Of a stretch of 64,000 nt of DNA, positions 24,423-64,000 are shown piece by piece. Made by a program: the position numbers and the translations under genes. The first letter of the stretch is position 1. Each line of letters starts with the position of its first letter. This DNA is from Torymus aiolomorphi. Taxonomy: Eukaryota > Arthropoda > Insecta > Hymenoptera > Torymidae. The stretch lies in NCBI GenBank assembly GCA_036365515.1, contig CM070874.1, positions 210,484,297 to 210,548,296 on the forward strand, written 5' to 3'. The notes under the pieces are model-generated. The model made no database searches. It was not told the origin of the DNA and saw only the letters and a program-made list of their open reading frames with translations.

Positions 24423-24769
24423 TATATATCAGGGTGTGTGTGCACGTGTGCGTGCGTGTGCGTGCGTGTAACATATATGTAACACGCACACGCACGCACA
24501 CACTTTATACCATATGATAACTCATAATTTCATTTCATAAGTACGCAATTTCGGCGTCATATTCTCCACCCTTAAAGACTAAATACATCCACATAACAGT
24601 TTCACAGTAAACAAATACCTCAAAATCCGTATAGACAAGGCACCACAGACTTTTGAAATTACGGGTTCACACAACAAAAACGCTTTTTGGAAGTTTTAAA
24701 ATTTATCACAGAGAAAACCCCTTACATCAGCATCGCTTTTTGCAATATTACTAGTCACATTTCTGTAAG

Positions 24770-27700: not shown

Positions 27701-28560
27701 TCGGGTATTTTTAATTTTTTTGTTTACCTTTGGTAAAACTCGCGGGAAGCTTTCTTAAAACATCGATTTGGAATACTTCTTCGAGCTACTATTTTAACTT
27801 GATTGTAGGTAATTTGTTAGCTATTTGAAATTTTTCTAGAATGCTTTCTGCAGTCTTTTTAGAAAGGTTTCGGCAAGGTTTAGTGAAATATTTCACGGGA
27901 TGCTTCTGGAAAGATAATTTAAAAACTTGCTGTAAGATTATACGGAAAGTAACAATTATAACTTTCAAAGAGCATAATATAACCTTTTGTAAAGCTTTCC
28001 TGTAAGATTGCAGCATCGTTTTTTGCAATCTTTGTTGTGAGTTCCCTGCAAGCTTCCCTCAAGCTTTCATACAATATTTGAAAGTCGGATATATGGAACC
28101 TTTTTTGTTACCTTCCGTAAAACTCGCGGGAAGCTTTCTTAAAACACCGATTTCGAATACTTCTGCAAGCTACTGTTTTAACTTGATTGTAGGTAATTTA
28201 TTAGCTACTTGAAATTTTTCTAGAATGCTTTATGCAGTCTTTTTAGAAAGGTTTGGGCATGATTTAGTGAAATATTTCACGGGATGCTTCTAGAAAGATA
28301 TTTTAAAAACTTGCTGTAAGCTTATACGGAAAGTAACAATAATAACTTTCAAAAAGCTTAATGTAACCTTTTGTAAAGCTTTCACGTAAGATTGCAGCAT
28401 CGTTTTTTGCAATCTTTTTTTGTGAGTTTCCTGCAAGCTTCCCTCAAGCTTTCATTTAATATTTGAAAGTCGGATATTTGTAACTTTTTTGTTACCTTCC
28501 GTAAAACTCGCGGGAAGCTTTCTTGAAACATTGCTAACGTAACTTTACTGAAAGTTTCAT
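24770..28560. repeat. 383-bp satellite array, about ten monomers
   Basis: The anchor AAGCTTTC(A/G)TGTAAGATTCC recurs at about 25096, 25478, 25861, 26245, 26628, 27226, 27608 (variant), 27992 and 28376. The spacing is 382-384 except for one of 598, explained by a 215-bp insertion. Monomers are roughly 80-90% alike by eye. Short frames on the minus strand (for example 25132-24776, 27618-27313) recur because the monomers do; they carry stops and are not genes. Confidence 0.9.
26931..27145. mobile_element. 215-bp GC-richer insertion in one satellite monomer
   Basis: Comparison with neighbouring monomers shows one extra block between GGA at 26928-26930 and GGA at about 27142-27144. The insert contains CCGAGGCGAAGCCGAGG and several GGCGC-type words unlike the satellite. 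A 3-bp duplication is possible but too short to trust. A SINE or MITE fragment is likely; the family was not recognised. Confidence 0.65.
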
Positions 28561-28629
28561 GTAGCTTCCTGACAGATAGAAGCAATCTTCCACTGGAAGC
28601 TATCTCGAAACCCTCCGCTGGAAGCTTTC

Positions 28630-31600: not shown

Positions 31601-33828
31601 ATGTATAATTACCGACAAATTTTAGAATGTATATTTCTTTTGCAAATAATAATAGAATTACTAACAAAAAAAATTGAGTATAGTATTTACATATACGGAG
31701 CGACTGAAAGAGCTGTTTTTCCAAAAATTTACTCAGGATTTATTTAATTAAATAAAAGCCGCAATGCCGATAAGTAGGGATCTGTATACTTCGAATTTTG
31801 CCAGTTTTAAAAAGTGTTTATCTCATGGAAATGCTGATAGAATCGCAAAAAAAAAATCTGAGTATAGTATTTACATACACGGAGCGCCTGAAAGAATTGA
31901 TTTTCCAAATAAACGTTCGAATTTTTATCAATTAAATAATGAAATTGGGTTGATTTTGACGTTCACATCGCCTTAAAGTATGGCTGAAAGTATGGTTGAA
32001 GTATGGATGAATGTATGGCTTGAAGTATGGATGAATGTATGGCTTAAAGTGCGGCTTGAAGTATGGCTTAAAGTATGGCTGAAAGTATGGCTTAAAGTAT
32101 GGCTGAAAGTGAACGTTTAGATTCCGTAAGGAGATCGTAGTATTCGAGTTATTTCCACAACCTTGACTGAAATTTACATAAATTTTTTGTATTAAGTTTC
32201 CCGTGAGTAGAACGTATTTGTCATTATTTTCCCAAACTTTATCGAAATATGACATTAACCTTGTATGATGTTTTACGTAATTTAATCGTAAGACTTCAAT
32301 TCGGTTTTCCAAACTTTAAAAGAGATGAACTGAGCTAAATTTAATATAAACATATGAAGTATTTCCTAAGGCGAGTGTAAGATTCCTATTTTTACACGTA
32401 TATTGACGGAAACTAATCTGAAGTTCATATTAAGTTTCCGGTCGATGGTCGTGACAAGCTTTTTCTAAAGTATGGCTGAAAGTATGGCTTAAAGTATGGC
32501 TGAAAGTATGGCTTAAAGTATGGCTGAAAGTATGGCTGAAAGTATGGATGAAAGTATGGCTTAAAGTATGGCTGAGAGTATGGCTTAAAGAATGGCTTAA
32601 AGTATGACTGAAAGTTATCGTTTAGATTCCGTAAGGAGATCGTAGTATTCGAATTATTTCCACAACCTTTACTGAAATTCACCTAAATTTTTTGTATTAA
32701 ATTTCCCGTGAGTAGAACGTGTTTATTATTATTTTCCCAAACTTTACCGAAACATAACATTATTCTTGTATGATGTTTTACGTAATTGAATTGTAAGATT
32801 TGTATTTGGTTTTCCAAACTTTAAAAGAGTTGAACTGAGCCAAAGTTAATATAAACATATGAAGTATTTCCTAAGGCGAGTCTAAGATTCCTATTTCTAC
32901 ACGAGCATTGACGGAAACTAATCTGAAGTTCATATTAAGTTTCCTGTCGATGGTCGTGACAAGCTTTTTCTAAAGCATGGCTTAAAGTATGGCTGAAAGT
33001 ATGGCTTACTGTATGGATGGAAGTATGGATGAAAGTATGGCTTAAAATATGGCTTAATGTATGGCTGAATATATGTCTTAAAGTATGGCTGAAAGTTATC
33101 GTTTAGATTACGTAAGGAGATCGTAGTATTCGAATTATTTCCACAACCTTGACTGTAATTCACCTAAATTTTGTACTAGGTTTCTCGTGAGTAGAACGTA
33201 TATGTCATTAGTTTCCCAAACTTTACCGAAACTTAACATTGACCTTGTATGATGTTTTACGTAATTTAATCGTAAGATTGCAATTCGGTTCTCCACACTT
33301 TAAAAGAGATGAGCTGAATCAAAGATAATATAAACATATGAAGTATTTTCTACGGCGAGTGTAAGATTCCTATTTTTACACGAACATTGACAGAAACTAA
33401 TCTGAAGTTCATATTAAGTTTCCTGTCTATGGTCGTGACAAGCTTTTTCTAAAGTATGGCTTAAAGTATGGCTTAAAGTATGGCTGATAGTATTGCTTAA
33501 AGTATGGCTGAAAGTATGGCTTAAAGTATGGCTGAAAGTATCGCTTAAAGTATGGCTGAAAGTATGGCTTACAGTATGGATGAAAGAATGGCTTAAAGTA
33601 TGGCTTAATGTATGGCTTAATGCTAACGTTTAGATTCCGTAAGGAGATCATAGGATTCGAATTATTTCTACAACCTTGACTGAAATTCACCTAAATTTTT
33701 TGTATTAAGTTTCCTGTGAGTAGAACGTATTTGATAGTTCTTTTCCCAAACTTTACCGAAACTTAACATTAACCTTGTATGATGTTTTACGTAATTTAAT
33801 CATAAGATTTCAATTCGGTTTTCCAAAC
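28630..33828. repeat. Composite satellite, left part (about 0.5-kb units with 12-bp subrepeats)
   Basis: Each unit has a conserved part of about 330 bp (anchor GTGAGTAGAACGTAT near 28714, 29318, 29735, 30268, 30785, 31309, 32210, 32707, 33188 and 33716) and a variable run of the 12-mer AAAGTATGGCT(T/G). Because 12 is a multiple of three, the run stays open: on the minus strand it reads as PYFK/PYFQ repeats, on the plus as KVWL repeats. Minus-strand frames start MNFSQGCGNNSN or similar and end in a shared short tail at many units. Unit length varies with the 12-mer number. Spacing of 901 at 31309-32210 is due to an insertion. Confidence 0.9.
31600..31975. other. Foreign insertion in the satellite with an internal direct duplication
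   Basis: Sequence unlike the satellite replaces part of a 12-mer run. Inside it, a block of about 65 bp (GAGTATAGTATTTACATA, then CGGAGCG) occurs twice, near 31677 and 31859. No inverted termini were found. It may be a fragment of another tandem repeat captured by the array. Confidence 0.6.
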
Positions 33829-36519
33829 TGTAGCCGCGATCGCAAATTTTCCCTCCGGGAGAGGCAAAACCTGCATGATTCAATTTTTCAATTAGTTGTG
33901 AACTCTCTCTTGTCTTCCTACCTAGACCAAAAGGGGGGAAATTCGATTTAGTGCATAAAAACGAAGTGGGAAGCGGGTTGGAATTAATAAGAATAAATTC
34001 AAGGGTGATTTAAGTACTAAAATCAAAACATGGTTTTATTAAGTTATTGTGATAAAAGAAATTAAACAACTAATATGACAAGATCATAATGATTCTTAAC
34101 GGTAGTTATCAATAATACATCGGAAAAATCGCTTTTACGCGTTTTTTGGCATTGTGCGAGGAATTTTGTCTCGCCTTCCAGGATTTGTAAACACGCGCAT
34201 AACGTCAGAGTCAACTAAAGGCGCGTGACTAACTCTCCGACAACGATTCAAAATGGTTTTCTAACTTAAAAACGTAAATCGGCTGAAGATGGTCGGCATC
34301 TCGCCTCGAATAGCGATCCCTTGTGAGGATTTGATAACGGCTGAGGACAATCGCTGTGCCGCCCCTCTGAATGACTGCGAAAGCGACAGTTTCGGCTGAA
34401 GACGCACGACGTCCTGCCCCGTGCCGATCGTACGACTGATTACAGCATTTAATGCCTTGTTTGTGTTATAAAAACAGAACGCAACTACCCGTACTGCCCC
34501 TTCGTGCTGTATTTCACATGACATACTGTTTGAGAATTCCATAAATATTATACTGAGGACATGCTGTGGGTGTTTACAAAACAAATTGAGCCAAACACTT
34601 TGGTAAATTAAACTATAATATATTCACAATAACTATAAAAATATAATTTACTATTACAAATTTGTCGATATAAAAGTTGTTTCAAGAATAAGTATAAAAT
34701 ATGTGAGATGTTACAAGTGAATAGTTGAGTGTATGACTGTTACATAATTCTGAGTGTATGAGTGTTACAAATTCTGTGAGTATTGGTGAGTTTGCTGTTT
34801 GAGTGTATGAGTTTTCTGTGTGACGTTGCGAATCACTGATGAGTGTACTAACCATACAATAAGTAACACAATCAATTATTATTGAATTAATTGTGGTTGA
34901 GTTTTCAATGAGACGACACGATTAGGTATTACTGACCTAATCGTGCCCGAGTATTTCCCACTGTACAGCTTGGTTATGCTTTCCGTGTCGCAGCGTACCT
35001 TCGTATAAAATGGCCGCATGTATTTGAGTTGTTACCTTATAATACGTAGAGGTTATATTAATCTTTACGCCGACAAGTTGGTCCCGTGATGGTGATCCGC
35101 AACAAAGCTCAGCAGTGGAGAAGAACCGTATGTTGAGCATGATAACGAAAGATGAGATAAGCCGGTGAGTTGAGTGTGAGGATGCGAAGCAGCCGATGAG
35201 AGAAGCCAGTTGAGCAAAGCCGATTGAGAACTGCCAGTGTAATTTTCCTGCTTGAAAAAACCATGGCCAAATCCCGTTGATATTATTGATCACGGTGATC
35301 ATGAGTTTACTGCCGGTGTTGCATTGGTAAAAGTGCAGGTGTGAGCGAGAATCCGTGCAAAGTTGCTGAGTGAGTATATGCCATGTGAGGAGAAGCCGCG
35401 TGAGAAGCTGCCTTGTGAGACGCACTGCACTATGAATATGCCGTGTAAGATATTGCCTCGTGGCGCGCTCGAAGCATCGAGCGCCGATAAGAAGATGCCG
35501 CTTGTGTATCACCGCCGTGTGAGAAGTTTCCGTGTGAGAGACACTGTTGCGTGAAAACTTGCCGTGCTAGACGACGCCGTATGAGATGTTGCCGAGCAGC
35601 AGTCCATGTTGAGAGAGTGAGAAACACTACACTTGAATTTTTCACTTGAGAATCGCCGAATGTGTACAGTGAGTTTCTCTACGACACGAACCGCTACACA
35701 GAGTGAGTTGACCGAGAGAGAGAGCTCCATCACATGAGAATCGCCGGCACAGTAGATTTCCCTCATGGCAGACCATTACTGAGAGAGACTTTTAGTGAGA
35801 GGTTTGAGTGTATCTACTGAGAGCCAAGGTACCGTGAATTTTTCCACGAGGCGAACCATTACACGGATACTAACTGAGTGTGAGAATTAAGAGAGCACTT
35901 CCGTCTTCTTCCTCGTCTCGTTGTTACCGAGGAGTGAGTCAAATCACCGTCTCTCTCATTTACATGTGTGAGCATGAGAGAGACAGCATGAGTTTTGCCA
36001 TACTCGGCTAATCAGTATAGCGATTCAGCTGTTCCGCAGAGAACAGCTGCTGAGTGCTGCCGTCGTGCGGCCGCCTGCTGAATTATCCCTCAGTCGCGCA
36101 ACCGCGGGTAATTCAAAACTTGATATTTCCCAAACACATACCTTTCACGCGTTTTTGCACTCCGATGGAGGTGCTCAATGACGACTTCAACGGACTGTGC
36201 GGAAAATGATACGAGCCCTTGTGCGCTATACGAGGATGATGCTTCTTGCCCAAAAATTAACCTGCTCGATTTTCTTGGTGTCCTTTCAGCAACAACCGAA
36301 GAACGGCTCTCTCGCGCCGGCCTTCTATGTCCCTGCACCTTCCCGTCCGAACTTAGTCACTTATCGCCACGCATTCCCGGTTCACTCCCTCCAAAAAGAA
36401 ATACACACACATACCTCCATACTCGCACGCGCGACAGATTCGCAGCGCTGTGACGTGTCGCCCTCTGTCGCATGCATACACACGCCGACGCGCGCGTCTT
36501 TCGAGTTTTCGACGCAACA
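33829..36519 (-). repeat. 3' LTR, about 2.7 kb
   Basis: On the minus strand it begins TGTTGCGTCG right after a purine tract and ends CGGCTACA, giving TG...CA ends. Only the last 488 bp (33829-34316) has a partner at the other end. The middle (about 34690-35950) is a degenerate low-complexity stretch of GTGTGAG/GAGTGTATGAG-type words on the plus strand. The size rests on the purine tract and TG start. If the true LTR were only 488 bp, there would be no TG start at its edge. ORFs inside it (for example 36178-36574) have no recognisable product. Confidence 0.65.
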
Positions 36520-42684: not shown

Positions 42685-45600
42685 ATAGCTGAACGTATTG
42701 CTTGAAGTATGGATGAAAGTATGGATTAAAGTATGGCTTCAAGTATGGATGAAAGTATGGCTGAAAGTATGTCTGAAAGTGATCGTTTAGATTCCGTAAG
42801 GACATCGTAGTATCCGAATTATTTTCACAGACTTGATGGAAATTCACCTAAATTTTGTAATTAGTTCCTCGTGAGTAGAACGTATTTATCATTATTTTCC
42901 CAAACTTTATCGAAACATAACATTAACCTTGTATGATGTTTTACGTAATTTAATCGTAAGACTTCAATTCGGTATTCCAAACTTTAAAAGAGATGAAATG
43001 AGATAAAGTTAATATAAACATATGAAGTATTTCCTAAGGGGAGTGTAAGATTCCTATTTTTACACGAACATTGACGGAAACTAATCTAAAGTTCATATGA
43101 AGTTTTCTGTCGAAGGTTGTGACAAGCTTTCTCTAAAGTATGACTGAAAGTATGTCTTAAAGTATGGATGAATGTATGGCTGAAAGTATGGCTTAAAGTA
43201 TGGCTTAAAGTATGGCCTAAAGTATGGATGATAGTATGACTGAAAGTATGGCTGAAAGTTATCGTTTAGATTCCGTGAGGAGATCGTAGGATCCGAATTA
43301 TTTTCACAGCCTTGACTGAAATTCACCTAAATTTGTAATTATTTTCTCGTGAGTAGAACGTATTTATCATTATCTTCTCAAACTTTACCGAAATTTAATA
43401 TTAACCTTGTATGATGTTTTAGGTAAATTCATCTTAAGATTTCAATTCGTTTTTACAAACTTTAAAATAGATGAACTGAGGCAAAATCTATATAAACAAA
43501 TGAAGTATTTCCTACGGCGAGTGTAAGATTCCTCTTTTTACACGAACATTGACGGAAACTAATCTGACGTTCATATTAAGTTTCCTGTCGATGGTTGTGA
43601 CAAGCTTTTTCTAAAGTATGGCTGTAGGTATGGCTTAAAGTACGGCTGAAATTATGGCTGAAAGAATGGTTTGAAGGATGAATGAAAGTATTGCTTAATG
43701 TATGGCGTAAAGTATGGATGAAAGTATGGCTTAAAGTATGGCTGAACGTATGGCTTAAACTATGGCTGAAAGTTATCGTTTAGATTTCGTAAGGAGATCG
43801 TTGTATTCGAATTAGTTCCACAACCTTGACTGTAATTCACCTAAATTTTGTATTACGTTTCTGGTGAGTTGAACGTATGTATCATTATTTTCCCAAACTT
43901 TACCGAAACTTAACATTAACCTTGTATGATGTTTTACGTAATTTAACCGTAAGATTACAATTCGGTTTTCCACACTTTAAAAGAGATGAGCTGAGCCAAC
44001 GTTAATATAAACATATGAAGTATTTCCTAAGGCGAGTGTAAGATTCCTACTTTTACACGAACATTGACGGAAACTAATCTGAATTTCATATTAATTTTCC
44101 TGTCGATGGTCGTGACAAGCTTTCTCTAAAATATGGCTGAAAGTATGGCTTAAAGTATGGCTGAAAGTATGGCTTAAAGTATAGCTGAAATTATCGCTTA
44201 AAGTATGGCTGAAAGTATGGCTTACAGTATGGATGAAAGAATGGCTTAAAGTATGGCTTCAAGTATGGCTGAATGTTAACGTTTAGATACCGTAAGGAGA
44301 TCGCAGGATTCGAATTATTTCCACAACCTTGACAGAAATTCACCTCAATTTTTTGTATTAAGTTTCCTATTTTTACACGAACATTTACAGAAACTAATCT
44401 AAAGTTCATATTAGGTTTTCTGTCGATGGTTGTGTCAAGCATTTTGTAAAGTATGGCTTAAAGTATGGCTTAAAGTATGGCTGAAAGTATGGCTTAAAGT
44501 ATGGCTGAAAGTATGGCTTGAAGTATGAATGAAAGTATGGCTTAAAGTATGGATGATTGTATGGCTGAAAGTATGGCTGAAAGTATGGCTGAAAGTTATC
44601 GATTAGATTCCGTAAGGAGATCGTAAGATCCGAATTATTTTCATAGCCTTGACTGAAATTCACCCAAATTTTGTATTTAGTTCCTCATGAGTAGAACGTA
44701 TTACCATTATTTTCTCAAACTTTACGGAAATTTAACATTAACCTTGTATGGTGTTTTACGTAAATTAATCTTAAGATTTCAATTCGGTTTTACAAACTTT
44801 AAAAGAGATGAACTAAGGCAAAATGAATATAAACAAATGAAGTATTTCCTAAGGCGAGTGTAAAATTCCTATTTTTACACGAACTTTGACGGAAGCTATT
44901 CTGAAGTTGATATTAAGTTTCCTGTCGATGGTTGTGACAAGCTTTTTCTAAAGTATGGCTGAAGGTATGGCTTAAAGTACGGCTGAAAGTATGGCTGAAA
45001 GTATGGCTGTAAGTATGGATACAAGTATGGCTTAAAGTATGGCATAAAGTATGGCTTAAAGTACGGCTGAAAGTATGGCTGAAAGAATGGCTGTAAGTAT
45101 GGATACAAGTATGGCTTAAGGTATGGCATAAAGTATGGCTTAAAGTATGGCTTAAAGTATGGATGAAAGTATGGCTTAAAGTATGGCTGAGTGTATGGCT
45201 TAAAGTATGGCTTAAAGTATGAATTAAAGTATGGCTGAAAATATGTCTTAAAGTATGGCTGAAAGTTATCGTTTAGATTTCGTAAGGAGATCGTAGTATT
45301 CGAATTATTTCCACAACCTTGACTGTAATTCACCTAAATTTTGTATTGCGTTTTTTGTGAGTAGAACATATATATCATTATCTTCCCAAACTTTACCAAA
45401 ACTTAACATTGACCTTGTATGATGTTTTACGTAATTGAATCGTAAGATTTCAATTCGGTTCTCAAAACTTTAACAGAGATGAGCTGAGCCAAAGATAATA
45501 TAAACATATGAAGTATTTCCTAAGGCGAGTGTAAGATTCCTATTTTTACACGAACATTGACGGAAACTAATCTGAAGTTGATATTAAGTTTCCTGTCGAT

Positions 45601-47480
45601 GGTTGTGACATTGGTTGTGATGTTGTAGCTTTTTCTAAAGTACGGCTGAAAGTATGGCTGAAAGTATGGCTTGAAGTATGAATGAAAGTAAGGCTTAAAG
45701 TATGGCTTAATGTATCGATTAAAGTATTGCTTAAGTATGGCTGAATGTATGGCTTAAAGTATGGCTTAAAGTATGGCTTAAAGAATGGCTGAAAATATGT
45801 CTTAAAGTATGGCTGAAAGTTATCGTTTAGATTTCGTGAGGAGATCGTAGTATTCGAATTATTTCCACAACATTGACTGTAATTCACCTAAATTTTGTAT
45901 TACGTTTCTCGTGTGTAGAACGTATATATCATTATTTTCCCAAACTTTACCGAAACTTAACATTAACCTTGTATGATGTTTTGCGTAATTTAATCGTAAG
46001 ACTTCAATTCGTTTTTCCAAACTTTAAAAGAAATGAACTGAGCTAATGTTAATATAAGCATATGAAGTATTTCCTAAGGCGAGTGTAAGATTCCTATTTT
46101 TACACGAACATTAACGGAAACTAATCTGAAGTGCATATTAAGTTTCCTGTCGATGGTTGTGAAAAGCTTTATCTACAGTATGGCTGAAGGTATGGCTTAA
46201 TGTATGGCTGAAAGAAATGGCTGAAAGTACGTCTTGAAGTATGGATGAAAGTATGGCTTAAAGTATGCCTTAAAGTATGGTTTAAAGTATGAGTGAAAGT
46301 ATGGCTTAAAGTATGGATGAATGTATGGCTTAAAGTATGTCTTATGGTATGGCTTAAAGTATGGCTTAAAGTATGGATGAAAGTATGGCTGAAAGTATGG
46401 CTGAAAGTTATCGTTTAGATTCCGTAAGGAGATCGTAGGATCCGAATTATTTTCAGAGCCTTGACTGAAATTCACCTAAATTTTTTGTATTAAGTTTCCC
46501 GTGAGTAGAAAGTACTTATCATTATTATCCCAAACTTTAACGAAACATAACATTAACACTGTATGATGTTTTACGTAATTTAATCGTAAGATTTCAATTC
46601 GGTTTTCCAAACTTTAAAAGGGATGAGATGAGCCAAAGTTAATATAAACCTATGAATTATTTCCTAAGGCGAGTGTAAGATTCCTATTTTTACACGAACA
46701 TTGACAGAAACTAATCTAAAGTTCATATTAAGTTTTCTGTTGATGGTTGTGACAAGCTTTTTCTAAAGTATGGCTGAAAGTATGGCTTAAAGTATTGCTT
46801 AAAGTATGGCTTAATGTACGAATGAATGTTTGGCTTAAAGTATCGCTTAAAGTATGGCTTAAAGTATGGCTTAAAGTATGTATGAAAGTATGGCTGAAAG
46901 TATGGCTCAAAGTTATCGTTTAGATTCCGTAAGGAGATCGTAGGATCCGAATTATTTTCACAGCCTTGACTGAAATTCACCTAAATTTTGTTTTTAGTTT
47001 CTCGTGAGTAGAACGTATTTATCATTATTTTCTCAAACTTTACCGAAATTTAACATTAACCTTGTATGATGTTTTACGTAATTTAATTGTAAGATTTCAA
47101 TTCGGTTTTCCAAACTTTAAAAGGAATGAGCTGAGCCAAAGTTAATATAAACCTATGAAGTATTTCCAAAGGCGAGTGTAAGATTCCTATTTTTACACGA
47201 AAATTGACAGAAACTAATCTAAAGTTCATATTAAGTTTTCTGTCGATGGTTGTGACAAGCCTTTTCTAAAGTATGACTGAAAGTATGACTTAAAGTATGG
47301 ATGTAAGTATGGCTTAAAGTATGGATGTAAGTATGGCTTAAAGTTGGCTGAAAGTTATCGTTTGGATTCCGTAAGGAGATGGTAGGATTCGAATTATTTC
47401 CACAACCTTGACTGAAATTCACCTAAATTTTGTATTAAGGTGGACCGTAAGTTGAACGTATTTATCTTAACGTATTTATC
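42685..47480. repeat. Composite satellite, right part
   Basis: Same organisation and orientation as the array at 28.63-33.83 kb. Unit anchors are near 42873, 43356, 43868, 44690, 45358, 45915, 46505 and 47009. The 12-mer runs are longest at 44950-45260, which gives the longest minus-strand frame (145 codons, 45333-44896). The last units near 47450-47600 decay. Confidence 0.9.
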
Positions 47481-48400
47481 TTTAAGTGAACATAAACATT
47501 TGGAGTATTTCTTAAGGCGAGTGTAAGATTCGTATTTTTACTTGAACATTGGCGGGAACTAATCTGAAGTTCATATTAACTTTTCCGTCGATGGTTGTGA
47601 CAAACTTTGTCTAAAGTATGGCTGAAAGTATGGTTTAAAGTATATCTTAAAGTATATCTGAAAGTATAGCTCAAAGTATGGCTGAAAGCATGGCAGCAAG
47701 TAGTGATAAAAGTACGGCTAAAGTATGTCTGAAATTATAGCTTTATGAAATTTTCAGAAAAGTTTTGGAAAACTTCTAATATTTCATTATTTTTTGCTAC
47801 AAACCTTTACGGTAGTTGAAGTTCTTTTATTGAACAGTGGCGTGTTGTTTTGCGAAGCCTGACATCCGTTGAGAAAAGTTTTTCTAAACTTTAGTAGAGG
47901 TTTACCCAAACTTCATCAGAGATTATTAAATTTTAAGAAAAACTTTCCCGGAATTTTGGTGAAACCCTTTCCAACTCAACGTCAACGTCTAGGAAAACTT
48001 TTCCGAAGTATCGCTGACATCTAGGTAAACTATTGCAAACTTTAGCGGCCGTTCGGGAAAACTTTACGAAAGCATAGCAAACGTTTAGTCTAAGTATGGC
48101 TAAAAGTATCGTCTAAAGTATGGCTGAGCCATGGGTGAAACTATGGCTAAAATTATGGCAATAAGTATGGCTTGGTTTATTGTTGAAAGTATGGGTGAAA
48201 GTATGGCTTAAAGTATGGTTCAAAGTATGGATTAATGTATAGCTTAAAGTACGGCTCAAAGAATGGTAGCAAGTAATGATAAAAGTATGGCTAGATTATG
48301 ACTGAAAGTATAGCTTTATGAAAGTTTCGATAAAGTTTTGGAAATCTTTATCAAAGTTTTCTTATCATTTGGTAAAAACCTTTACGGAAGTTTAAGTTAT
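47481..48400. repeat. Decayed satellite with 12-mers and AAAGTTT-type words
   Basis: AAAGTATGGCT-type 12-mers at 47610-47740 and 48070-48300, mixed with degenerate AACTTT(C/A)G words. The part from about 48270 is matched in inverse orientation at about 50090-50170. No ORF. Confidence 0.6.
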
Positions 48401-48669
48401 TATAGTGATTTTTTGAGATATGTTTTGCAAAGCCTGACATCCGTTGAGAAAACTTTTTGTAAACGCATGTCGGCTTTGCAAAACATCTCTGAACAAATCA
48501 CGAATTAAATTTAAACTTCCGTAAAAATTAATTGTTATGACGCTAATGTGCATAAAGGCAAAAAACAATCTCATGTCCTTTTTATTAAAGGCCCAAATCG
48601 AAAAAAGTTGTCAAAAATAAGAGATTATAACAATAAGTCAAACACTTATTGCAGTCTAAAAAATTCACG

Positions 48670-48734
48670 GGTGTTTCGTCCAGGCTACTAGATTGGACTC
48701 ATCAGTGATGATCTAGTAGCCGTCATCAGACACC
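48670..48734 (-). ncRNA. Type III hammerhead ribozyme, copy A
   Basis: On the minus strand: GGTGTC (stem III strand with cleavage expected after C at 48729), stem I TGATGA/TCATCA (six perfect pairs) with an 11-nt loop, core CTGATGA, stem II GTCCA/TGGAC with loop ATCTAGTAGCC, core GAAA, then CACC. GGTGT pairs with ACACC in stem III. All invariant core residues of the family are present. Cleavage activity is inferred from the fold, not shown. Confidence 0.87.
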
Positions 48735-48941
48735 TAGCGCTCCATCGTAGCGGCCAAAGGTTTATAGACTGAGCCACTCTTTTCACTAGTGGAAAAGAGA
48801 GGCTCCATCTGTCGGTCCGTTACACAAGCACCGCGTTAAATATAAATTTAAGTGAAGCTAATTGCCTAGTGTAATATTTAATAATTGTTATGACGCTAAT
48901 GTGCATAAAGGCAAAAAACAATCTCATGTCCTTTTTATTAA

Positions 48942-49659
48942 GGGGTCTGTCTAGTAACTCACTTTTGAAAAATCGTTTTTTTTTTTGAGACAGAAAAGAT
49001 TGGAAGAAAGTCAACTCTTCGAACAATCTGAAGGAATTTTGTACGGTCCAGGCATCGCTGACTAGGTGTAAGTAATTTTTTTTTAAGAATTTCATGTAAA
49101 AAAAACTTTAAACGCGTTTTTCTCGAAACAACGCTTTTACTCGCCTTGTTGATGAAATTTTCGAAACTACTCGACCGATCCTTATGAAATTTGAACCACA
49201 TATTCTTCAAACCTATCGCTATGTCCCCTATAAATTTTTTTTAAAAATTTTGATTTTTACTATATTTTTTTTTCGAAAATCGGCGAAAAAAAAACGGTTT
49301 TTTGAAAATTTTTCGTTTTTTCTTCACTACTTCTTTATTTTTTTAAATAATTGAATAAAATTCATAGGGGACATAGCCATTGTCATACCGAACCTAAAGC
49401 ACTTTGTATTTTTTGTTTCAGACAACACAGCTCCGAGATTTTATCAACAAGGCGGACCTACCTACTTTTCGAGGTGTTGCGTTTGGTTGACGTTTTTGGT
49501 TATAATACATGTAAAAAATAAAAGAAAAAAATTTTTTTATGTATTTGAAGAGTGTATTTACTCAGCCTAATAACTTTTATATCATTACCTTTATCCAGTA
49601 TCCCAAGAAATAATCACGAAAATCGCGTTTTTTTCGACGCGAGCTACTAGACAGACCCC
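48942..49659. mobile_element. 718-bp TTAA-flanked element inserted in the hammerhead element
   Basis: TTAA at 48938-48941 and 49660-49663. The ends are inverted: GGGGTCTGTCTAGTA at the left, TACTAGACAGACCCC at the right. Removing the insert joins the central terminal repeat exactly. The interior has a further inverted pair around ATAGGGGACATAG (about 49218-49235 and 49364-49378) and T-runs. A piggyBac-like non-autonomous element is likely. Confidence 0.8.
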
Positions 49660-49819
49660 TTAAAGGCCCAAATCGAAAGAAGTTGTCAAAAATAAGAGAT
49701 TATAACAATAATATTTAACGCGGTGCTTGTGTAACGCACCGACAGATGGAGCCTCTCTTTTCCACTAGTGAAAAGAGTGGCTCAGTCTATAAACCTTTGG
49801 CCGCTACGATGGAGCGCTA

Positions 49820-49884
49820 GGTGTCTGCTGACGGCTACTAGATCATCACTGATGAGTCCAATCTAGTAGCCTGGACGAAACACC
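49820..49884 (+). ncRNA. Type III hammerhead ribozyme, copy B
   Basis: Same architecture as copy A: GGTGTC 49820-49825 (cleavage expected after 49825), CTGATGA 49849-49855, stem II 49856-49860 with 49872-49876, GAAA 49877-49880 and CACC 49881-49884. Stem I here has one mismatch (TGCTGA against TCATCA), which copy A lacks. It may cleave less well. The core is otherwise complete. Confidence 0.87.
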
Positions 49885-50065
49885 CGTGAATTTTTTAGAC
49901 TGCAATAAGTGTTTGACTTATTGTTATAATCTCTTATTTTTGACAACTTTTTTCGATTTGGGCCTTTAATAAAAAGGACATGAGATTGTTTTTTTGCCTT
50001 TATGCACATTAGCGTCATAACAATTATTAAATATTACACTAGGCAATTAGCTTCACCTAAATTTA

Positions 50066-50620
50066 TTTTTTTTCCGTAAAAATTTTTAACAATCGATAAC
50101 GAAACTTTGGGACATGTTTTCAAAACTTTTTTTAAACTTTCATAAATCTATACTTTTCATTACTTACTGCCATACTTTGAGCCATACTTTAAACTGTACT
50201 TTCAGATATACGCTAAGCCATACTTTGAGCCATGCTTTAAGCCTTACTTTCAGATATACGCTAAGCCATACTTGGATCCATACTTTCAGATATACGCTAA
50301 GCCATACTTCGAGCCATACTTTAAGCTCTAATCTAAGCCATATTTTGGACCATACTTGAAGCCATAATCTAAGCTATACTTTGAGCCATACTTTAAGCCA
50401 TAATCTAAGCCATACTTTTAGCCATACTTTAAGCCATACTTCGCCCATACTTTTAGCCATGCCTTCCCGCATACTTTCAGCCATTCCTTCACCCATTCTC
50501 TATGTTATACTCTAAGCCACTTTTACCCATACTTTCAGCAATACTTTCACCCATATGTCCAGCCATTCTTTAGGTCATACTTTCAACCATACTCGGACAG
50601 TGCTCAAAATAAAGCTTGTT
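50066..50620. repeat. 12-mer satellite in inverted orientation
   Basis: From about 50160 the sequence reads AGCCATACTTT, the reverse complement of the 12-mer unit left of the hammerhead element. A degenerate TTCAGATATACGCTAAGCC block recurs three times within it (50201-50300). The orientation change shows that a larger segment than the element itself is inverted. A small plus-oriented 12-mer patch returns at 50805-50895. Confidence 0.8.
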
Positions 50621-50895
50621 CTGTCTACTTTTAGAATTTTTTTTCGCTCATATTCGTAACAGGAATACTTGCAGAGTTACATAAAATAGAAGAGACATCA
50701 TGTTTTAACAAAATAACATATTTTGAAGATAAGAATATTTTTTACTTTAAAACACGATCTTTCAATTTGGTACAAATCCGTGATCCAAAGGTTAGGCACT
50801 CCCCTTGTAAGTATGATTCAAAGTATGGCAAAAAGTATGGGTTAAAGATCGGCTGAAAGTATGGCTTAAACTATGTCTGAAAGAATGGCAAATAT

Positions 50896-52460
50896 ATACA
50901 CGAATAGTTTTCCTCAGGCAACCGATTTTAGTTTTTATGGTCTCCTTTGCTCCTTAATGAATTTCTTTAAAACTCGCCCGGGGAAAAATCCAAAATTATT
51001 CAATATTCAGAAGGTTATAACCATGGCCGCGGTTGATCATAAATTCGTGTAGGTGGTTAAAGAAATGTATTTTTTAAATTTCATTTAACTGAAGGTTTTG
51101 GATAATTTGAAATTTTTCTTCGGCAAGTCGCCATGAAATTAATTAAGAAACAAAATCTGATCATGAAAAATAAAATAGTTCGTGAATGAAAAAAGATCCC
51201 TGTGTTTTATCAATAACTGTTTATACTGACGAAACTGTTCCTGAAATATCGACATTTTGTTAAAAAATGTTCGTTTAGTTATATTAAATAGACTTTTTTT
51301 AGATCAGATTAACTATTTATGTTATTCGGAATGGCTTAATTACATTACAAATATTGCTCTTACATATTTTAGACAACGTCTTGATTTAACACCGCTTTAT
51401 TTTGGGAGTCGTGCATGAACCTCGTTAACTAGAAATACGATTTTTTGTTACCATTAATAGAAGTTTTCCTTTCAGTTCACATTCTGATTATCTACTTACG
51501 TTACAGTTTATTGAAGATAAGATGCATTATTCATTATTTCATATTAATTATTTTATTACTCATTTTTTTCTATTAAAATTAAAAATCTTAATGTTAAAGC
51601 GCGAAAACGTTAAGGCTGCGAAGTGACAGCGTTTCTAATTTTGCAATTTTTGTAACAAAAAATACTCTTGTGCATCATAGGGTGAAGCGTTAAGCTGCTC
51701 TAGATATTTTTACGAAGCCGATAGATTCATTTAAGCACGAGAACTCTTTACGTAAGGATACGAGGTGGCTGTGTACGCGATTTCTTGATTTCTAATCGTG
51801 GGCAAGCAATTTTTGGAGTAGGCTTGTCGCTGCATGGATGTATGCTGTTTACGAGTCTGAAAATAAAAATTGAACTGGCGACCAAACGAAACGAACGCTT
51901 CCCCGGTTTTCATCAAGAAATTCCCTGGTGCGACACGCGAAGTGTTAGCGATGTTTAAAACATGATTTAAACTAAAGAACTTTTCATGTAACGCTCTAAA
52001 ATATCAGTGCCGTCGATTTCAAATCAAAGCTGTTTGCCGCATACTTTATTGTTGTTTGTGCTATGAAAAAATATTTTATCATGCTTTAATTCTGAATACG
52101 TAAAATTATAGGATAATCAGATAATTTTTTAAAACGAAAAATTATTTTCATATTTTATGTTAATTTATTTATTTAGTTTATAATACCTAAAGTATAGAAA
52201 TTCAATATAAAAATTCAAATGTAACGAGTATAGCAAATCTTCACGCCTATTCTTTATGACCAATCTAAATCAATTTTCGAATGTTGCACAACATCAGGCC
52301 CACGTTTTTTAAGAAAAGAAATACATGACTCGCTCTGTATGTATCAACGAGAGATATCAACTATGATGCGTTCATAGTTCCGCTAGCTGTACGCGAGTCG
52401 CGAATATTTGGCCGATCAAACGAAAGCTTTCCTCGTCAGCTGTCTTAAAAATAAGTCCAG
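50896..52460. other. No feature seen
   Basis: AT-rich sequence with occasional GC-richer words (51600-51960). The 61-codon minus frame at 51916-51731 has no recognisable content. No repeats or signals could be supported. Confidence 0.4.
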
Positions 52461-57145: not shown

Positions 57146-58081
57146 TTACAACGGTCATTTGTTTTACAATCATGAAAAGCAAATAAAGCGTGCTCAGCGC
57201 GCCTGCAACTTATAGTCAATATCAGATCGCTCTGATTGCAGACGACTGTGCTTCTAATGTTCGATGTTCAAATGGGCATATAAGGGCCAAAAAATTTTTA
57301 GGTTTAGAGATAATAAGAAGTACATTAAAAGTATGCATGTACTTACACAAACGAATGAGCATTTTTACTCAGTAACTTTTGACTGTAACTGAATAAAATT
57401 ACGCCAGTGTTTACTTTTTTTGTTTAATTACTACCGTTTGACTATTTAATAAAAAATATTATTTCTACAATTTTCGAACGAAATATCAAAATGGACGCGT
57501 TTTTCAAATAAAAAAACACCTCAAATATTAAATTTTAAGTGTTAAATAAATATTAATTAATTATTTTATTTTTAACTTTAAAATATGTATTTTTTAGTAT
57601 CAAATTTTTTATTAAATAAAGTACTTACAATATTTGCAACTGTAATAGTTAACTTGTAAATGTTCTGTAAGCTACAAAGTACTTCTTTACAATGTAAAAC
57701 TTTACAAAAAGTTAGCGAGTTCCCTGCACTTGTGACACGTAGTAACATCAATTTTTATTCGCAACTTTGCTTATACATACATAAACAGTTCCAGCACAAT
57801 AGATTCATAATTTATTTTCTAGTACCTAAGTGTGTAATTCTTTCTTTCGTTAAATGTAAATTTGACTCTATCTATAAAACTGAGATGCTCTCAAGATGAT
57901 GTAGTTAACGAACCAAAAGTTTGTATCCACGTTTAACAATCCAAAAATTATTATTAAAATCAAATTTTTGTTATTTGCACGCTACGATTTAAGAAAATAA
58001 AAATGGTCTTTTCAAAACGAATAAAATGCATGCATAAAATTCTTTAAAAAACAGTCAATCCCAATTTTGATTTCAAATGAT
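57146..58081. other. No feature seen
   Basis: Upstream of the transposase start and left of the visible palindrome arm. AT-rich; the 79-codon plus frame at 57660-57899 has no recognisable content. Confidence 0.4.
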
Positions 58082-61040
58082 AAATCAATTGGTGCAATTT
58101 TCCTTTCTACCGGACTCCTTTTCAAAATCCTAAGGTGCCCAGTGAAAAGTACCTTATGTATCGTAAATCTCTAAACCTTATACTTATAGAATTTAGATAA
58201 ACCTCCACCAAAGTTTAAGAAAAAATTGAAATGTCTGCCGTCGTCTACTTACAAAAATATTTATATAAAGGTTAGATTGATGTCCGCCAAAAATTTAAAA
58301 ATAATTCGACATTTAATACTATATTTATAAAAAGGTTTCTATGATGTTTGTGAAATTAATTTGAATTTCTTCGCTCTACTTACGAAAAAGTTCAATATTA
58401 AGTTTTGATAAATTTCCTTGAAAGATTTGAAAAAAAAAGCAGTTTACGAAATACTATTAGGAAAATTGGGTAACTTTTCTCCAATGTTTCGGGCAATATC
58501 GAAGGTCTACGGTCTATGTATAAATAGTTTTATATGATGTTTGTATAAAGCTCATATAAAGTTTGGAACAATTTTTCAAAAATTTCGAAAAAAGTCATTC
58601 GAATTCTTTTGCTCTACGTAAACAGCAGTTTAATATTAAAGTCCTGCAAAATATTGATACAATTTTCGTTGATCCTCAAAATTTGGATAAAGTTGTAATA
58701 TAAAAATTGTTGTGTAAAGTTTCGAAAAGCTTCACGTAAAACTTGCAATCTTCCATTATCTATTCGTAAGATTGGGTGAACTTTATAATAATTCTAGCGA
58801 AAGTTTGAGAAAAGTTTAGATAAATTTTGGCCGTAGATTATGGAACACATTTCAAAGTTACGGGAAGACTCATTAATCAGCTGTATGAAAAGTAGAGCCA
58901 AACGATAACTTCATACAAACTTTGATATGAGAAAAATTTTAGTCAACCAGTCGCATAGACTGTAAGGGTGCTTTTCTATTTGCAAATATCTTGTTGCAGG
59001 GTCGTATAGAACTTGTCCGATTTTGGGCCGGTGCTACATGAAGAAAAGACAGCTTCCATTCCAGTCTAGTAATACAGTACGGCTGAATTCTGTTGATTTC
59101 TTGCATAAGCTGCAGGAAATCTCATGTAGCGCTTACACTGAGAGGGCGACCGGAGCGTAGCAGCATACAGCGTGGTCGCAACGACGATGTTCAAAATGCA
59201 AAAGCTTAACTCTTGCGCGCGGCACTCACGGGGTAGCACGCAGCTTTCGTGACGAGCATATGCGCAGCTGAGTCGAACGCAACAACGTTGTTATACTCAA
59301 CTCGACCCCTTGGCGTATAAATAGTGTTAGCACTAGAACGTCTCGTATAAGTATAACTTTATTTATCTCAGTGAGCGCAAATATATTTTTTTCTATGTTC
59401 GCTGACTTAAAATAATCCATTTTGAAACTTCTTTAGTTTATTGCTTAAAAGTAATATTACATTTTCAATATAAGACTTTCAAATAGTGTGCTGTGTATAA
59501 ATAAGATTTGAGTATCTAATTATATTACTTGATAAGCTTTGCAAGTAAAACAATTGTCAACACGTGCATGAAACGGGCCTTTTTTCGGCCCTGAAAGCCA
59601 TGTAGAAAATCGCTCATTTCGAGCGTGATTTAGGAAAGAATGATTTTTCCCCCGCTCCAAGTGAATCATTGTAATATTTTTCTCTTATTGTTAAATTTAT
59701 ATATTTTATGGCTTTTTGGCCACTTTAGAATAATATAAAATAACTTTTAAAGATTAAATCGCAAAATAATAAACTTTTATAGATAGATATCAATAGAAAT
59801 AATTGCATGAGACTTTTATTTATAGTTTATAGTTATATGTTTAGTTTTTTATTAATTTTCAGTATTAATTCACTATTCGGTTGTGGACGACGCGAAATGC
59901 ACTATCCCCTACAGAATTTTTATGCATATAAAAAGGCCCTCTCATGCACTCGTTGAAAAAAATATGGTGTGTAACACGGGAAAAAGAGAAATTTCAGATT
60001 CGGGAGGTGTTTTCACCACTCGTTTCCGTCTCGGGCGCCCTCGACTACAACTCGTGCTGAACGTCTCACCCTCGCTTGAAATAGCTCATATTCTTGCTAG
60101 TTGCACAATGTACTATAAATTCTCAATACATACATAATTAATCAATAGTCAGTTTAAACGATAAAACATATCGTGTACTGCGTGGACGAAATATGTAAAA
60201 GGGCTCAGTGACTCGCAAAATACGTGAGTATAATGGCCTCGTAGGTAATGCAGTGGAAAATAGCTGCCAGTTATCTTAATAATGAATGAATAAAGCCAAT
60301 TTGGTTATTTTCTTCGATTTTATTCACAGTATTATCACTGTAACGGTGAGCTGTCTCGGCTACGGCAAATACGGCAAATACGGCGAGACGATAGTACGTG
60401 CGCGGCAGCGGCGTCATCTGTTGGGCATTTCGTGAACCAACAGCATTTGTAAACATTGCCACTAACATAACCCGGAACATACCCCATAATTTGATAAATA
60501 ATTTACACACACCGGTGAATAGAAATAGAATGCTATTCATGTTATCAAGCAATCTTTAAAGATTTAATGAAATTTCCAGAATATTCCGTTAGCTTGAATC
60601 AAGTATACGTTATGGCTATGTCAAGAGCACCCATCGGCCATTGCGTCATGAAGTTGCCGCTTGTTAGCTAGAGTCCGTTTATTCAAAAGACTTCCTTCTA
60701 TGAATTCCCGTTCCTCGAACGTCTGCGGTAATTCCCCTGTCCGGCTGAAAAAGCAGATTTTGATTATTCAATTAAAAATTGATTCATCCCCATATCGAGG
60801 TTGGGCAAAGTAGGTATGGTCTTTAAACTTAATGAACTTCGATAAATGGACATAAAAACCAAACCTTAAATATTTTTCAAAAAAATAATTTTGCTATCTT
60901 TTTTATTTTCTGTGTTACGTCAATTTTGACTGCACCATTGTGTTCCTCGGGATCCAAAACCCTTAGACTCACCGCTTTTCCAACCTTTTCGCAATTTTCG
61001 GGGGAGAAAATCCAATGTCAGGATAATTTGAGTCACTCAT
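58082..61040. repeat. Left arm of a giant palindrome
   Basis: Matches 61042-64000 in inverse orientation over the whole visible length. Paired positions sum to about 122082 throughout (for example 60271 with 61811, 59226 with 62856), with a few percent differences by eye. The outer part (58150-58960) is made of degenerate AAAGTTT-type words. The inner part contains the dispersed repeat of 3545-3960 (59880-60130). Frames such as 60552-60271 recur on the other arm and carry no known domain. Confidence 0.92.
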
Positions 61041-61041
61041 T

Positions 61042-64000
61042 TTATCAATTTATCGGACTTAAATTATCCTGACATTGGATTTTCTCCCCCGAAAATTGCG
61101 GAAAGGTTGGAAAAGCGGTGAGGTTTTGTGTCCCGAGGAACACAATGGTGCAGTCAAAATTGACGTAACACAGAAAATAAAAGAGATAGCAAAATTATTT
61201 TTCGAAAAATATTTAATGTTTGGTTTTTATGTCCATTTATCGAAGTTCATTAAGTTTAAAGACCATACCGCCTTTGCCCAACCTCGATATCGGGATGAAT
61301 CAATTTTTAATTGAATAATCAAAATCTGCTTTTTCGGCCGGACAGGGGAATTACCGCAGACGTTCGAGGAACGGGAATTCATAGAAGGAAGTCTTTTGAA
61401 TAAATGGACTCTAGCTAGCAAGCGGCAACTTCATGACGCGATGACCGATGGGTGCTCTTGACATAGCCATAACTTATACTTGATTCAAGCTAACGGAATA
61501 TTCTGGAAATTTCATTAAATCTTTAAAGATTGCTAGATAACATGAATAGCATTCTATTTCTATTCACCGGTGTGTGTAAATTATTTATCAAATTATGGGG
61601 TATGTTCCGGGTTATGTTAGTGGTAATGTTTACAAACGCTGTTGGTTCGCGAAATGCCCAACAGATGACGCCTCTGCCGCGCACGAACTATTGTCTCGCC
61701 GTATTTGCCGTATTTGCCGTAGCCGAGACAGTTCACCGTTACAGTGATAATACTGTGAATAAAATCGAAGAAAATAGCCAAATTGGCTTTATTCATTCAT
61801 TATTAAGATAACTGGCAGCTATTTTCCACTGCATTACCTACGAGGCCATTATACTCACGTATTTTGCGAGTCACTGAGCCCGTTTACATATTTCGTCCAC
61901 GCAGTACACGATATGTTTTATCGTTTAAACTGACTATTGATTAATTATGTATGTATTGAGAATTTGTAGTACATTGTGCAACTAGCAAGAATATGAGCTA
62001 TTTCAAGCGAGGGTGAGACGTTCAGCACGAGTTGTAGTCGAGGGCGCCCGAGACGGAAACGAGTGGTGAAAACACCTCCCGAATCTGAAATTTCTCTTTT
62101 TCCCGTGTTACACACCATATTTTTTTCAACGAGTGCATGAGAGGGCCTTTTTATATGCATAAAAATTGTATAGGGGATAGTGCATTTCGCGTCGTACACA
62201 ACCGAATAGTGAATTAATACTGAAAATTAATAAAAAACTAAAAATATAACTATAAACTATAAATAAAAGTCTCATGCAATTATTTCTATTGATATCTATC
62301 TATAAAAGTTTATTATTTTGCGATTTAATCTTTAAAAGTTATTTTATATTATTCTAAAGTGGCCAAAAGGCCATAAAATATATAAATTTAACAATAAGAG
62401 AAAAATTTTACAATGATTCGCTTGGAGCGGGGGAAAAATCATTCTTTCCTAAATCACGCTCGAAATGAGCGATTTTCTACATGGCTTTCAGGGCCGAAAA
62501 AAGGCCCGTTTCATGCACGTGTTGACAATTGTTTTACTTGCAAAGCTTACCAAGTAATATAATTCGATACTCCAATCTTATTTATACACAGCACACTATT
62601 TGAAAGTCTTATATTGAAAATGTAATATTACTTTTAAGCAATAGACTAAAGAAGTTTCAAAATGGATTATTTTAAGTCAGCGAACATAGAAAAAAATATA
62701 TTTGCGCTCACTGAGATAAATAAAGTTATACTTATACGAGACGTTCTAGTGCTAACACTATTTATACGCCAAGGGGTCGAGTTGAGTATAACAACGTTGT
62801 TGCGTTCAACTCAGCTGCGCATACTCTCGTCACGAAAGCTGCGTGCTACCCCATGAGTGCCGCGCGCAAGAGTTAAGCTTTTGCATTTTGAACATCGTCG
62901 TTGCGACCACGCTGTACGCTGCTACGCTCCGGTCGCCCTCTCAGTGTAAGCGCTGCATGAGATTTCCTGCAGTTTATGCAAGAAATCAACAGAATTCAGC
63001 CGTACTGTATTACTAGACTGGAATGGAAGCTGCCTTTTCTTCATGTAGCACCGGCCCGAAATCTGACGAGTTCTATACGACCCTGCAATAAGATTTTTGC
63101 AAATAGAAAAGCACCCTTACAGTCTATGCGACTGGTTGACTAAAATTTTTCTCATATCAAAGTTTGTATGAAGTTATCGTTTGGCTCTACTTTTCATACA
63201 GCTGATTAATGAGTCTTCCCAAAACTTTGAAATGTGCTGCATAATCTACGGGCAAAATTTATCTAAACTTTTCTCAAACTTTCGCTAGAATTATTATAAA
63301 GTTCACCCAACCTTACGAATAGATAATGGAAGATTGCAAGTCTTACGTGAAGCTTTTCGAAACTTTACACAACAATTTTTATATTACAACTTTATCCAAA
63401 TTTTGAGGATGAACGAAAATTGTATCAATATTTGGCAGGACTTTAATACTAAACTGCTGTTTACGTAGAGTAAAAGAATTCGAATGACTTTTTTCACGAT
63501 TTTTGAAAAATTTTTCCAAACTTTATATGAGCTTTATACAAACATCATATAAAACTATTTATACATAGACCGTAGACCTTCGATATTGCCTGAAACATTG
63601 GAGAAAAGTTACCCAATTTTCCTAATAGTATTTCGAAACTGTTTTTTTTTTCAAATCTTTCAAGGAAATTTATCAAAACTTAATATTGAACTTTTTCGTA
63701 AGTAGAGCGAACAAATTCAAATTAATTTCACAAACATCATAGAAACCTTTTTATAAATATAGTATTAAATGTCGAATTATTTTTAAATTTTTGGCGGACA
63801 TCAATCTAACCTTTATATAAATATTTTTGTAAGTAGACCGCGGCAGACATTTCAATTTTTTCTTAAACTTTGGCGGAGATTTATCTAAATTCTATAAGTA
63901 TAAAGTATAGAGATTTACGATACATAAGGTACTTTTTACTGAGCACCTTAGGATTTTGAAAAGGAGTCCGGTAGAAAGGAAAATTGCACCAATTGATTTA
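61042..64000. repeat. Right arm of the giant palindrome, running off the window
   Basis: Inverse copy of the left arm, still matching at the last base of the window, so the true arm is longer. Around the centre, 60994-61029 and 61062-61097 form a nearly perfect 36-bp stem with a loop of about 32 nt. Differences between arms include substitutions in the 62480-63060 part. Confidence 0.92.

Follow-up and report, generated by a model that had tools for sequence, protein, structure and literature searches.

The presence of two opposed hammerhead ribozymes in the window (the whole stretch of 64,000 nucleotides that was analysed) raises the question of what kind of element carries them and by which route such an element enters a chromosome. 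A sequence-only reading had assigned both motifs to type III and placed them in an inverted-repeat element with long inverted ends, unlike the plant retrozymes and the mostly type I animal hammerheads, and had suggested a new family of ribozyme-bearing element. The best reading of the locus, judged from its sequence, appears to be an animal non-LTR retrozyme, which would be a non-autonomous, non-coding retrotransposon, whose hammerhead is not of type I and is instead a kissing-loop type III, in which a long helix would join loop I and loop II.

The two 65-nt motifs lie, in opposite orientation, where they had been described, and the best Rfam match of each is RF00008, with 35.3 bits for the minus-strand motif and 30.8 bits for the plus-strand motif; the corresponding E values are 1.9e-5 and 3.5e-4 in a 1.6-kb search and 7.4e-4 and 0.014 in a search of the whole window. 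The Rfam gathering score of 48.5 is reached by neither motif, no Rfam match in the window stands at the gathering threshold, and a whole-genome search with RF00008, in which 68 of 148,516 candidates were scored, gave no match over the cut-off. The covariance scan proposed by the sequence-only reading has therefore a divided outcome, in which RF00008 is recovered while the scores, being under the gathering score, count against the claim as that reading had worded it, namely as a hit above threshold.

All the residues of the conserved core (CUGANGA, GAAA, and a UH cleavage triplet) are present in both motifs with stem III open, so that the claim of a complete type III core in each copy is sustained; the description of stem I is also accurate, this stem being formed by six perfect pairs (TGATGA/TCATCA) in the minus-strand motif (48734-48670) and interrupted by a single C-T mismatch in the plus-strand motif (49820-49884). 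When at least four pairs are required in all three stems, a type III descriptor recovers the minus-strand copy alone from the window (5, 6, and 5 pairs in stems III, I, and II, respectively), compared with five hits among 6,269 dinucleotide-shuffled versions of the window; a relaxed version with two pairs in stem I finds both copies and gives 30 hits in 6,269 shuffles. As copies of a single element, the two motifs do not count as independent occurrences. Among the 197 matches of our own model, weak hits antisense to each ribozyme are due to the near-palindromic character of the ribozyme letters.

A feature absent from the sequence-only reading is the complementarity of loops I and II over 10–11 nt. 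Because of it, minimum-energy folding favours a competing hairpin (-23.5 kcal/mol) over the nested hammerheads (-12.5 and -7.8), unless the loops kiss; the loop-loop duplex by itself is computed at -15.6. In these folding models the isolated RNA would prefer the long hairpin, and the same letters could make a kissing helix in the hammerhead. The predicted 354-nt circle contains the hairpin too, with consequent blocking of the ribozyme, and the linear minimum-energy fold behaves likewise; the circle folds at -91.5 versus -71.6 (sd 5.5) for its shuffles, one in 200 of which is as low. Pseudoknots between stem I and stem II are given as likely in about 40% of hammerheads in the available text of PMC3088659.

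An 11-bp hairpin as the minimum-energy fold and Rfam scores under the gathering score are what could be met if there were no ribozyme at all, only a DNA palindrome or an RNA hairpin resembling a hammerhead by chance, an explanation that is hardly credible considering the completeness of the core and the other hammerheads of the same genome. In a third subfamily, L089, found by the RF00008 model and about 76% identical to the monomer, stem III is altered on both sides (from GGTGT/ACACC to AAGTGT/ACACTT), and in the motifs of two unrelated sequences, L090 and L036, the core, the stems (compared by eye in L090), and the loop-loop complementarity are kept with different letters, so that core and stems persist through compensatory changes in all three. 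The observed complementarity is matched, out of 20,000 loop shuffles, by none for the first L090 motif, seven for the second, 82 for L036, and none for the window family. L089, L090, and L036 give comparative support to the fold, and to the kissing helix or the alternative hairpin alike.

The ribozyme is also less variable than the rest of the monomer, in a sample biased toward intact ribozymes: 35 of 8,076 cells differ from the majority within it versus 1,045 of 36,860 elsewhere. A second subfamily (L032, L083, and L084) has a BLAST identity to the monomer of 76–83% and carries the exact 65-nt ribozyme in all three loci, which were selected for the exact match; one L084 unit is identical at 63 of 65 positions within the ribozyme and at 227 of 269 outside. 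These three loci were excluded from the private-variant, conservation, and arm-consensus counts. The L036 motif is a third type III hammerhead (L036:765-1504, core near 1220-1292, 32.1 bits with our own model) located in a 465-nt direct repeat, the first copy of which has its start no more than about 2 nt from the predicted site of cleavage, a position suggestive of the insertion of a linear self-cut RNA. The exact core is found in none of the contigs of the viral collection; a loose type III pattern occurs in 19 viral and two prokaryote contigs and, of the two contigs scanned with our own model, L021 was matched at 36.3 bits and L020 was not among the matches.

As regards the element that carries the window motifs (Table 1), its exact 13-bp target-site duplications and the alignment of its flanks across the empty site (joined without the element, they match two paralogous segments within the flanking palindrome at 72% and 68%) indicate an insertion whose start and end are both defined. 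The long inverted ends previously noticed are real (284–316 bp, 99% identity); they are, however, two arms of tandem monomers and not terminal inverted repeats. In fact, both arms are copies of one monomer with the ribozyme sense directed outward, and the left arm holds a head-to-tail monomer junction; the locus is better called a retrozyme insertion than an inverted-repeat element, its arms being divergent and its target-site duplication 13 bp long. The monomer has 353/354 nt and 39% GC, and its longest stop-free stretch is of just 56 codons, on account of which an HDV-like agent was rejected.

Table 1. Coordinates of the retrozyme insertion in the window, of its parts, and of the LTR-type retrozyme found at another locus
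Feature	Position	Strand or ribozyme sense	Remarks
Left 13-bp target-site duplication	48517..48529		TTCCGTAAAAATT; only 2 copies in window
Whole insertion	48530..50071		Two divergent monomer arms, including later insert
Left arm	48530..49711	minus	About 1.3 monomers; outer end at site A, monomer about 201
Type III hammerhead, intact	48670..48734	minus	65 nt; predicted cleavage between 48729 and 48728
718-bp non-coding insert	48942..49659		Short inverted ends GGGGTCTGTCTAGTA; inside left arm
Right arm	49711..50071	plus	One monomer; outer end at site B, monomer about 245
Type III hammerhead, one stem I mismatch	49820..49884	plus	65 nt; predicted cleavage after C49825
Run of T	50066-50071		End of right arm
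Right 13-bp target-site duplication	50072..50084		TTCCGTAAAAATT
LTR-type retrozyme L090	527-1681 of L090		Contig C5:19268599-19271671; one locus

The 718-bp insert is bounded by a TTAA duplication (48938-48941 and 49660-49663) and split the left arm after the retrozyme insertion; by its TTAA target, we take it to be piggyBac-like. Other identities were considered for the window element and for its parts. A DNA transposon with terminal inverted repeats, a MITE, or a foldback element was discarded due to the outer ends, which fall at two points of the monomer separated by about 37 nt, and the same difference, together with the 13-bp length of the duplication, led to the rejection of a plant-type LTR retrozyme. 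A Pol III terminator is not supported as the source of the T-run, since at the left-arm junction the equivalent monomer position has no run of T after it.

The window insertion belongs to a large family. The genome searched, of 1.08 Gb in 21 contigs, contains 940 places (470+470) within three mismatches of the ribozyme, while the reversed control gives 0+0, and the search for further copies advised by the sequence-only reading was in this way answered. A sample of 30 loci, consisting of the window and of 29 loci picked for an exact match to the ribozyme (28 from contig C1, one from C2), was compared. The arms are divergent in all the 25 loci scored as two-armed and convergent in none; the remaining five of the 30 were scored as one-armed, among them L036, in which a short inverted arm is present but was removed by the filter. 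The outer ends cluster at two positions of the monomer, site A (199–212, near 206) and site B (238–247, near 243); both outer ends fall at a site in 20 of the 25 two-armed loci, in the combinations AB (10) and BA (10) and never AA or BB, and one outer end lies away from both sites in the other five. The best end repeat is exactly 13 bp long in 14 of the 30 loci and at least 13 bp long in 18, compared with four of 870 mismatched left/right end pairs used as control (largest, 24), and no end repeat of at least 13 bp was found in 12 of the 30. Taken together, 19 duplications are 83% AT.

Tandem arrays of near-identical units, with further satellite-like tandem DNA nearby, might suggest a satellite amplified and re-inserted at the DNA level through extrachromosomal circles or unequal exchange; such a process is very improbable, given that fixed outer ends, duplications fixed at 13 bp, and divergence in 25 of 25 loci are not expected from it. 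The retrozyme reading is favoured by the internal organisation of the arms, which are longer than one monomer in 39 of 55 cases and range from 55 to 4,563 nt, up to 12.9 monomers. Their inner ends are spread, one in 55 lying 3 nt or less from the cleavage site (0.93 expected). Copying of a linear self-cut RNA would halt at the cleavage site, and the occurrence of inner ends there at chance level only argues that the arms run through it. The inner ends show a pile-up at monomer 222–246 (six of 55 at position 233; e.g., L033, L034, and L078), which overlies a near-palindrome beside site B and perhaps derives from cDNA ending after whole turns, or from a BLAST boundary effect.

The variants carried by single insertions bear on the nature of the template. 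In L078, a change at monomer position 143 is present in 22 of 22 units, in both arms, and in none of the 46 other arms; such a presence throughout both arms would be expected if both target strands had been extended on a single circle. In general, variants fixed in one arm were compared with the opposite arm and were found there in 33 rows, absent in 18, partly present in one, and not applicable in 10; of the 18 absences, 15 are positions 204–218 of L031, a deletion or a junction artefact, and three remain. The arm consensuses of a locus lack any substitution between them in eight of 21 loci, and in only 14 of the 21 is the opposite arm of the same locus closer than the median of the other loci. 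A single template per insertion would be consistent with these shared private variants, its weakest evidence being the seven discordant loci, for which the lack of a closer own arm might be expected if they are old. Gene conversion between the arms may also lie behind the shared variants.

Templates of another kind would be long array transcripts, linear and uncut or partly cut, so that the ribozyme would be incidental to the insertion. Genomic arrays able to yield such transcripts exist, and a purified Penelope-like element (PLE) enzyme inserts unprocessed RNA, ribozyme cleavage being unneeded in vitro (PMC11167929); this explanation is nevertheless rather unlikely in the light of the L078 variant, of the variable lengths of the arms, and of the frequent likeness of the two arms of a locus, although a uniform parental array could mimic these features.

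The observations as a whole are probably explained by a type III kissing-loop non-LTR retrozyme copied from RNA circles, with a PLE as the most likely helper. Cleavage, circularisation, and reverse transcription would, as we infer them, follow one another in this order: the retrozyme arrays would be transcribed, the monomer RNAs would cut themselves after GUC, and a host ligase would close the cut unit into a circle. AT-rich DNA would then be cut with a 13-bp stagger by a helper enzyme and both DNA 3' ends would act as primers, site A (about 206) of the circle being the start for one strand and site B (about 243) the start for the other, while the reverse transcriptase would go round the circle repeatedly, sometimes more than ten times; joining of the cDNA ends would leave two divergent tandem arms between the 13-bp duplications. 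Priming of two strands at separate fixed sites of the circle would account for the divergent arms, the two fixed outer ends, the multimeric arms, the variable inner joins, and the constant stagger, and the outward direction of the arms means that the ribozyme strand served as the template.

Analogy with published biochemistry points to a PLE as the most likely helper, because a PLE enzyme cuts and extends both strands, prefers AT-rich DNA, and starts at two paired internal sites bounding a 30–40-bp 'tail' of genomic copies (PMC11167929). In the family examined here, the outer ends near 206 and near 243, one of each in 20 of 20 paired-end loci, agree with two internal start sites 30–40 nt apart; the targets are AT-rich, and the divergent arms can be read as the extension of both strands. 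Tandem organisation and the hammerhead are further traits shared with PLEs, which differ in encoding a reverse transcriptase and an endonuclease, unlike the non-coding retrozyme, and in the start sites, alike on both strands in the published PAc reaction (PMC11167929). PLEs have also been suggested as retrozyme helpers because the two co-occur, form tandem copies, and have type I hammerheads in common (PMC7229834). Since the insertion signature agrees with the biochemical behaviour of a purified PLE enzyme, the spread of animal retrozymes becomes directly testable; moreover, if the proposal is true, bidirectional rolling-circle priming could account for the optional 'tail' of PLEs.

The same retrozyme could have been mobilised by a LINE-type helper, through target-primed reverse transcription with twin priming. 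LINE twin priming yields 5' inversions, and a LINE-type ORF with an RVT_1 domain is present in the window. Large duplications, of 15 bp, have been termed LINE-like for Nematostella repeats in the accessible portion of PMC4918200. We regard a LINE helper as doubtful, as there is no poly(A), random twin priming is not expected to produce divergent arms in 25 of 25 loci with fixed ends one of each in 20 of 20, and R2 and L1 have been shown only to extend the bottom strand (PMC11167929).

The comparison with known systems defines what is new in this element, for which a PLE remains the preferred helper. According to the available text of PMC7229834, metazoan non-LTR retrozymes are small AT-rich non-coding tandem repeats of 150–450 bp with a hammerhead and without LTRs, are present in many copies, and are flanked by duplications longer than 4 bp, with PLEs proposed as helpers. 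The window element has, likewise, tandem non-coding repeats in this size range, with a GC content below 50% and a hammerhead in each, and a duplication of 13 bp. The hammerheads described there are of type I, whereas those of the window element are of type III, with stem III open; in addition, the ribozyme is mostly predicted free in the metazoan circles and hairpin-blocked in the circle predicted here, and the word 'inverted' is absent from the portion of that text available.

Plant LTR retrozymes, as described in the accessible part of PMC4918200, share with the window element the type III hammerhead, predicted to be blocked in the circle, and the nature of small non-coding retroelements; their LTRs of about 350 bp, primer-binding site, 4-bp duplications, and circles of 600–1000 nt are an LTR plan of which the window element has nothing. 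Complete type III LTR retrozymes have been identified only in dicots, as stated in the available text of PMC11722881. The element thus breaks the reported division of retrozymes into type I in animals and type III in plants, and the blocking of its ribozyme in the predicted circle recalls viroids and plant retrozymes.

Hammerheads of type III topology with a Watson-Crick pseudoknot between loop I and loop II are known in animal genomes from work on HDV-like agents and insects, the accessible part of which (PMC7936874) lists pseudoknotted motifs in two termites, Drosophila pseudoobscura, Rhagoletis, Musca, and Hermetia. These motifs have an extra hairpin on stem I and a pseudoknot of 4 nt (GCCR/YGGC), in contrast to the 10–11 nt found here, and in the same portion of text the termite motifs are isolated, with no retrozyme unit, duplications, or arrays described. 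The hammerheads of PLEs are minimal type I motifs, and insect elements with type III hammerheads were mentioned in 2020 in a review citing work in preparation, both according to the available sections of PMC7761336; the accessible text of a paper on the cave-cricket satellite names no type III (PMC2837043). Other hammerhead literature, available in part, includes the schistosome W-elements (PMC8490949), a hammerhead review (PMC6155905), and PMC11721086.

In a literature search with thin coverage of subscription journals and partial texts, no description of type III animal retrozymes or of divergent insertions was found, and the signature of the mechanism is sharper than that found in the literature. 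Because the element is a retrozyme insertion, its arms divergent and its duplication 13 bp long, the class is known and the variant new, so that the 'new family' of the sequence-only reading stands for the variant and not for the class, retrozymes being already known; the combination of type III hammerheads with a non-coding repeated element does differ, as that reading had indicated, from both the plant LTR retrozymes and the type I animal retrozymes. The roughly 940 ribozyme places in one genome also offer material for the study of circle-templated reverse transcription.

A second retrozyme of the same genome, L090, is of the LTR type. Its direct repeats (527-830 and 1376-1681) are 97% alike and have, by inspection, TG...CA ends; a primer-binding-site-like stretch follows the first repeat, a purine-rich tract precedes the second, and GAAT is duplicated as a 4-bp target site. 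Each repeat contains a type III kissing-loop hammerhead, the two being 850 nt apart. On the evidence of its sequence, L090 appears to represent the plan of plant LTR retrozymes in an animal genome, at one locus only. A more specific proposal, to which we give slightly better than even prospects, combines PLE-driven bidirectional rolling-circle target-primed reverse transcription of one circle for the window family with the LTR retrozyme, one ribozyme type thus being spread by two unrelated routes.

The surroundings of the insertion are rich in repeated DNA. Arrays of 12-nt units, of the AAGTATGGCTGA type, lie on either side of it (47586-48300, 50113-50600, and 50781-50900) and are opposite in orientation on the left and on the right, within an older palindrome. 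A further stretch of the window, 58081-64000, is 97% identical to its own reverse complement, forming a palindrome that is centred near 61040 and reaches the window end, and positions 269-1378 match their own reverse complement at 83%. A search of the window for tRNA genes found none. It contains ORFs of the BEL/Pao, reverse-transcriptase, and DDE_3 kinds, and blocks of satellite-like tandem DNA are located around the retrotransposon ORFs at 24728-33832 and 42685-47466.
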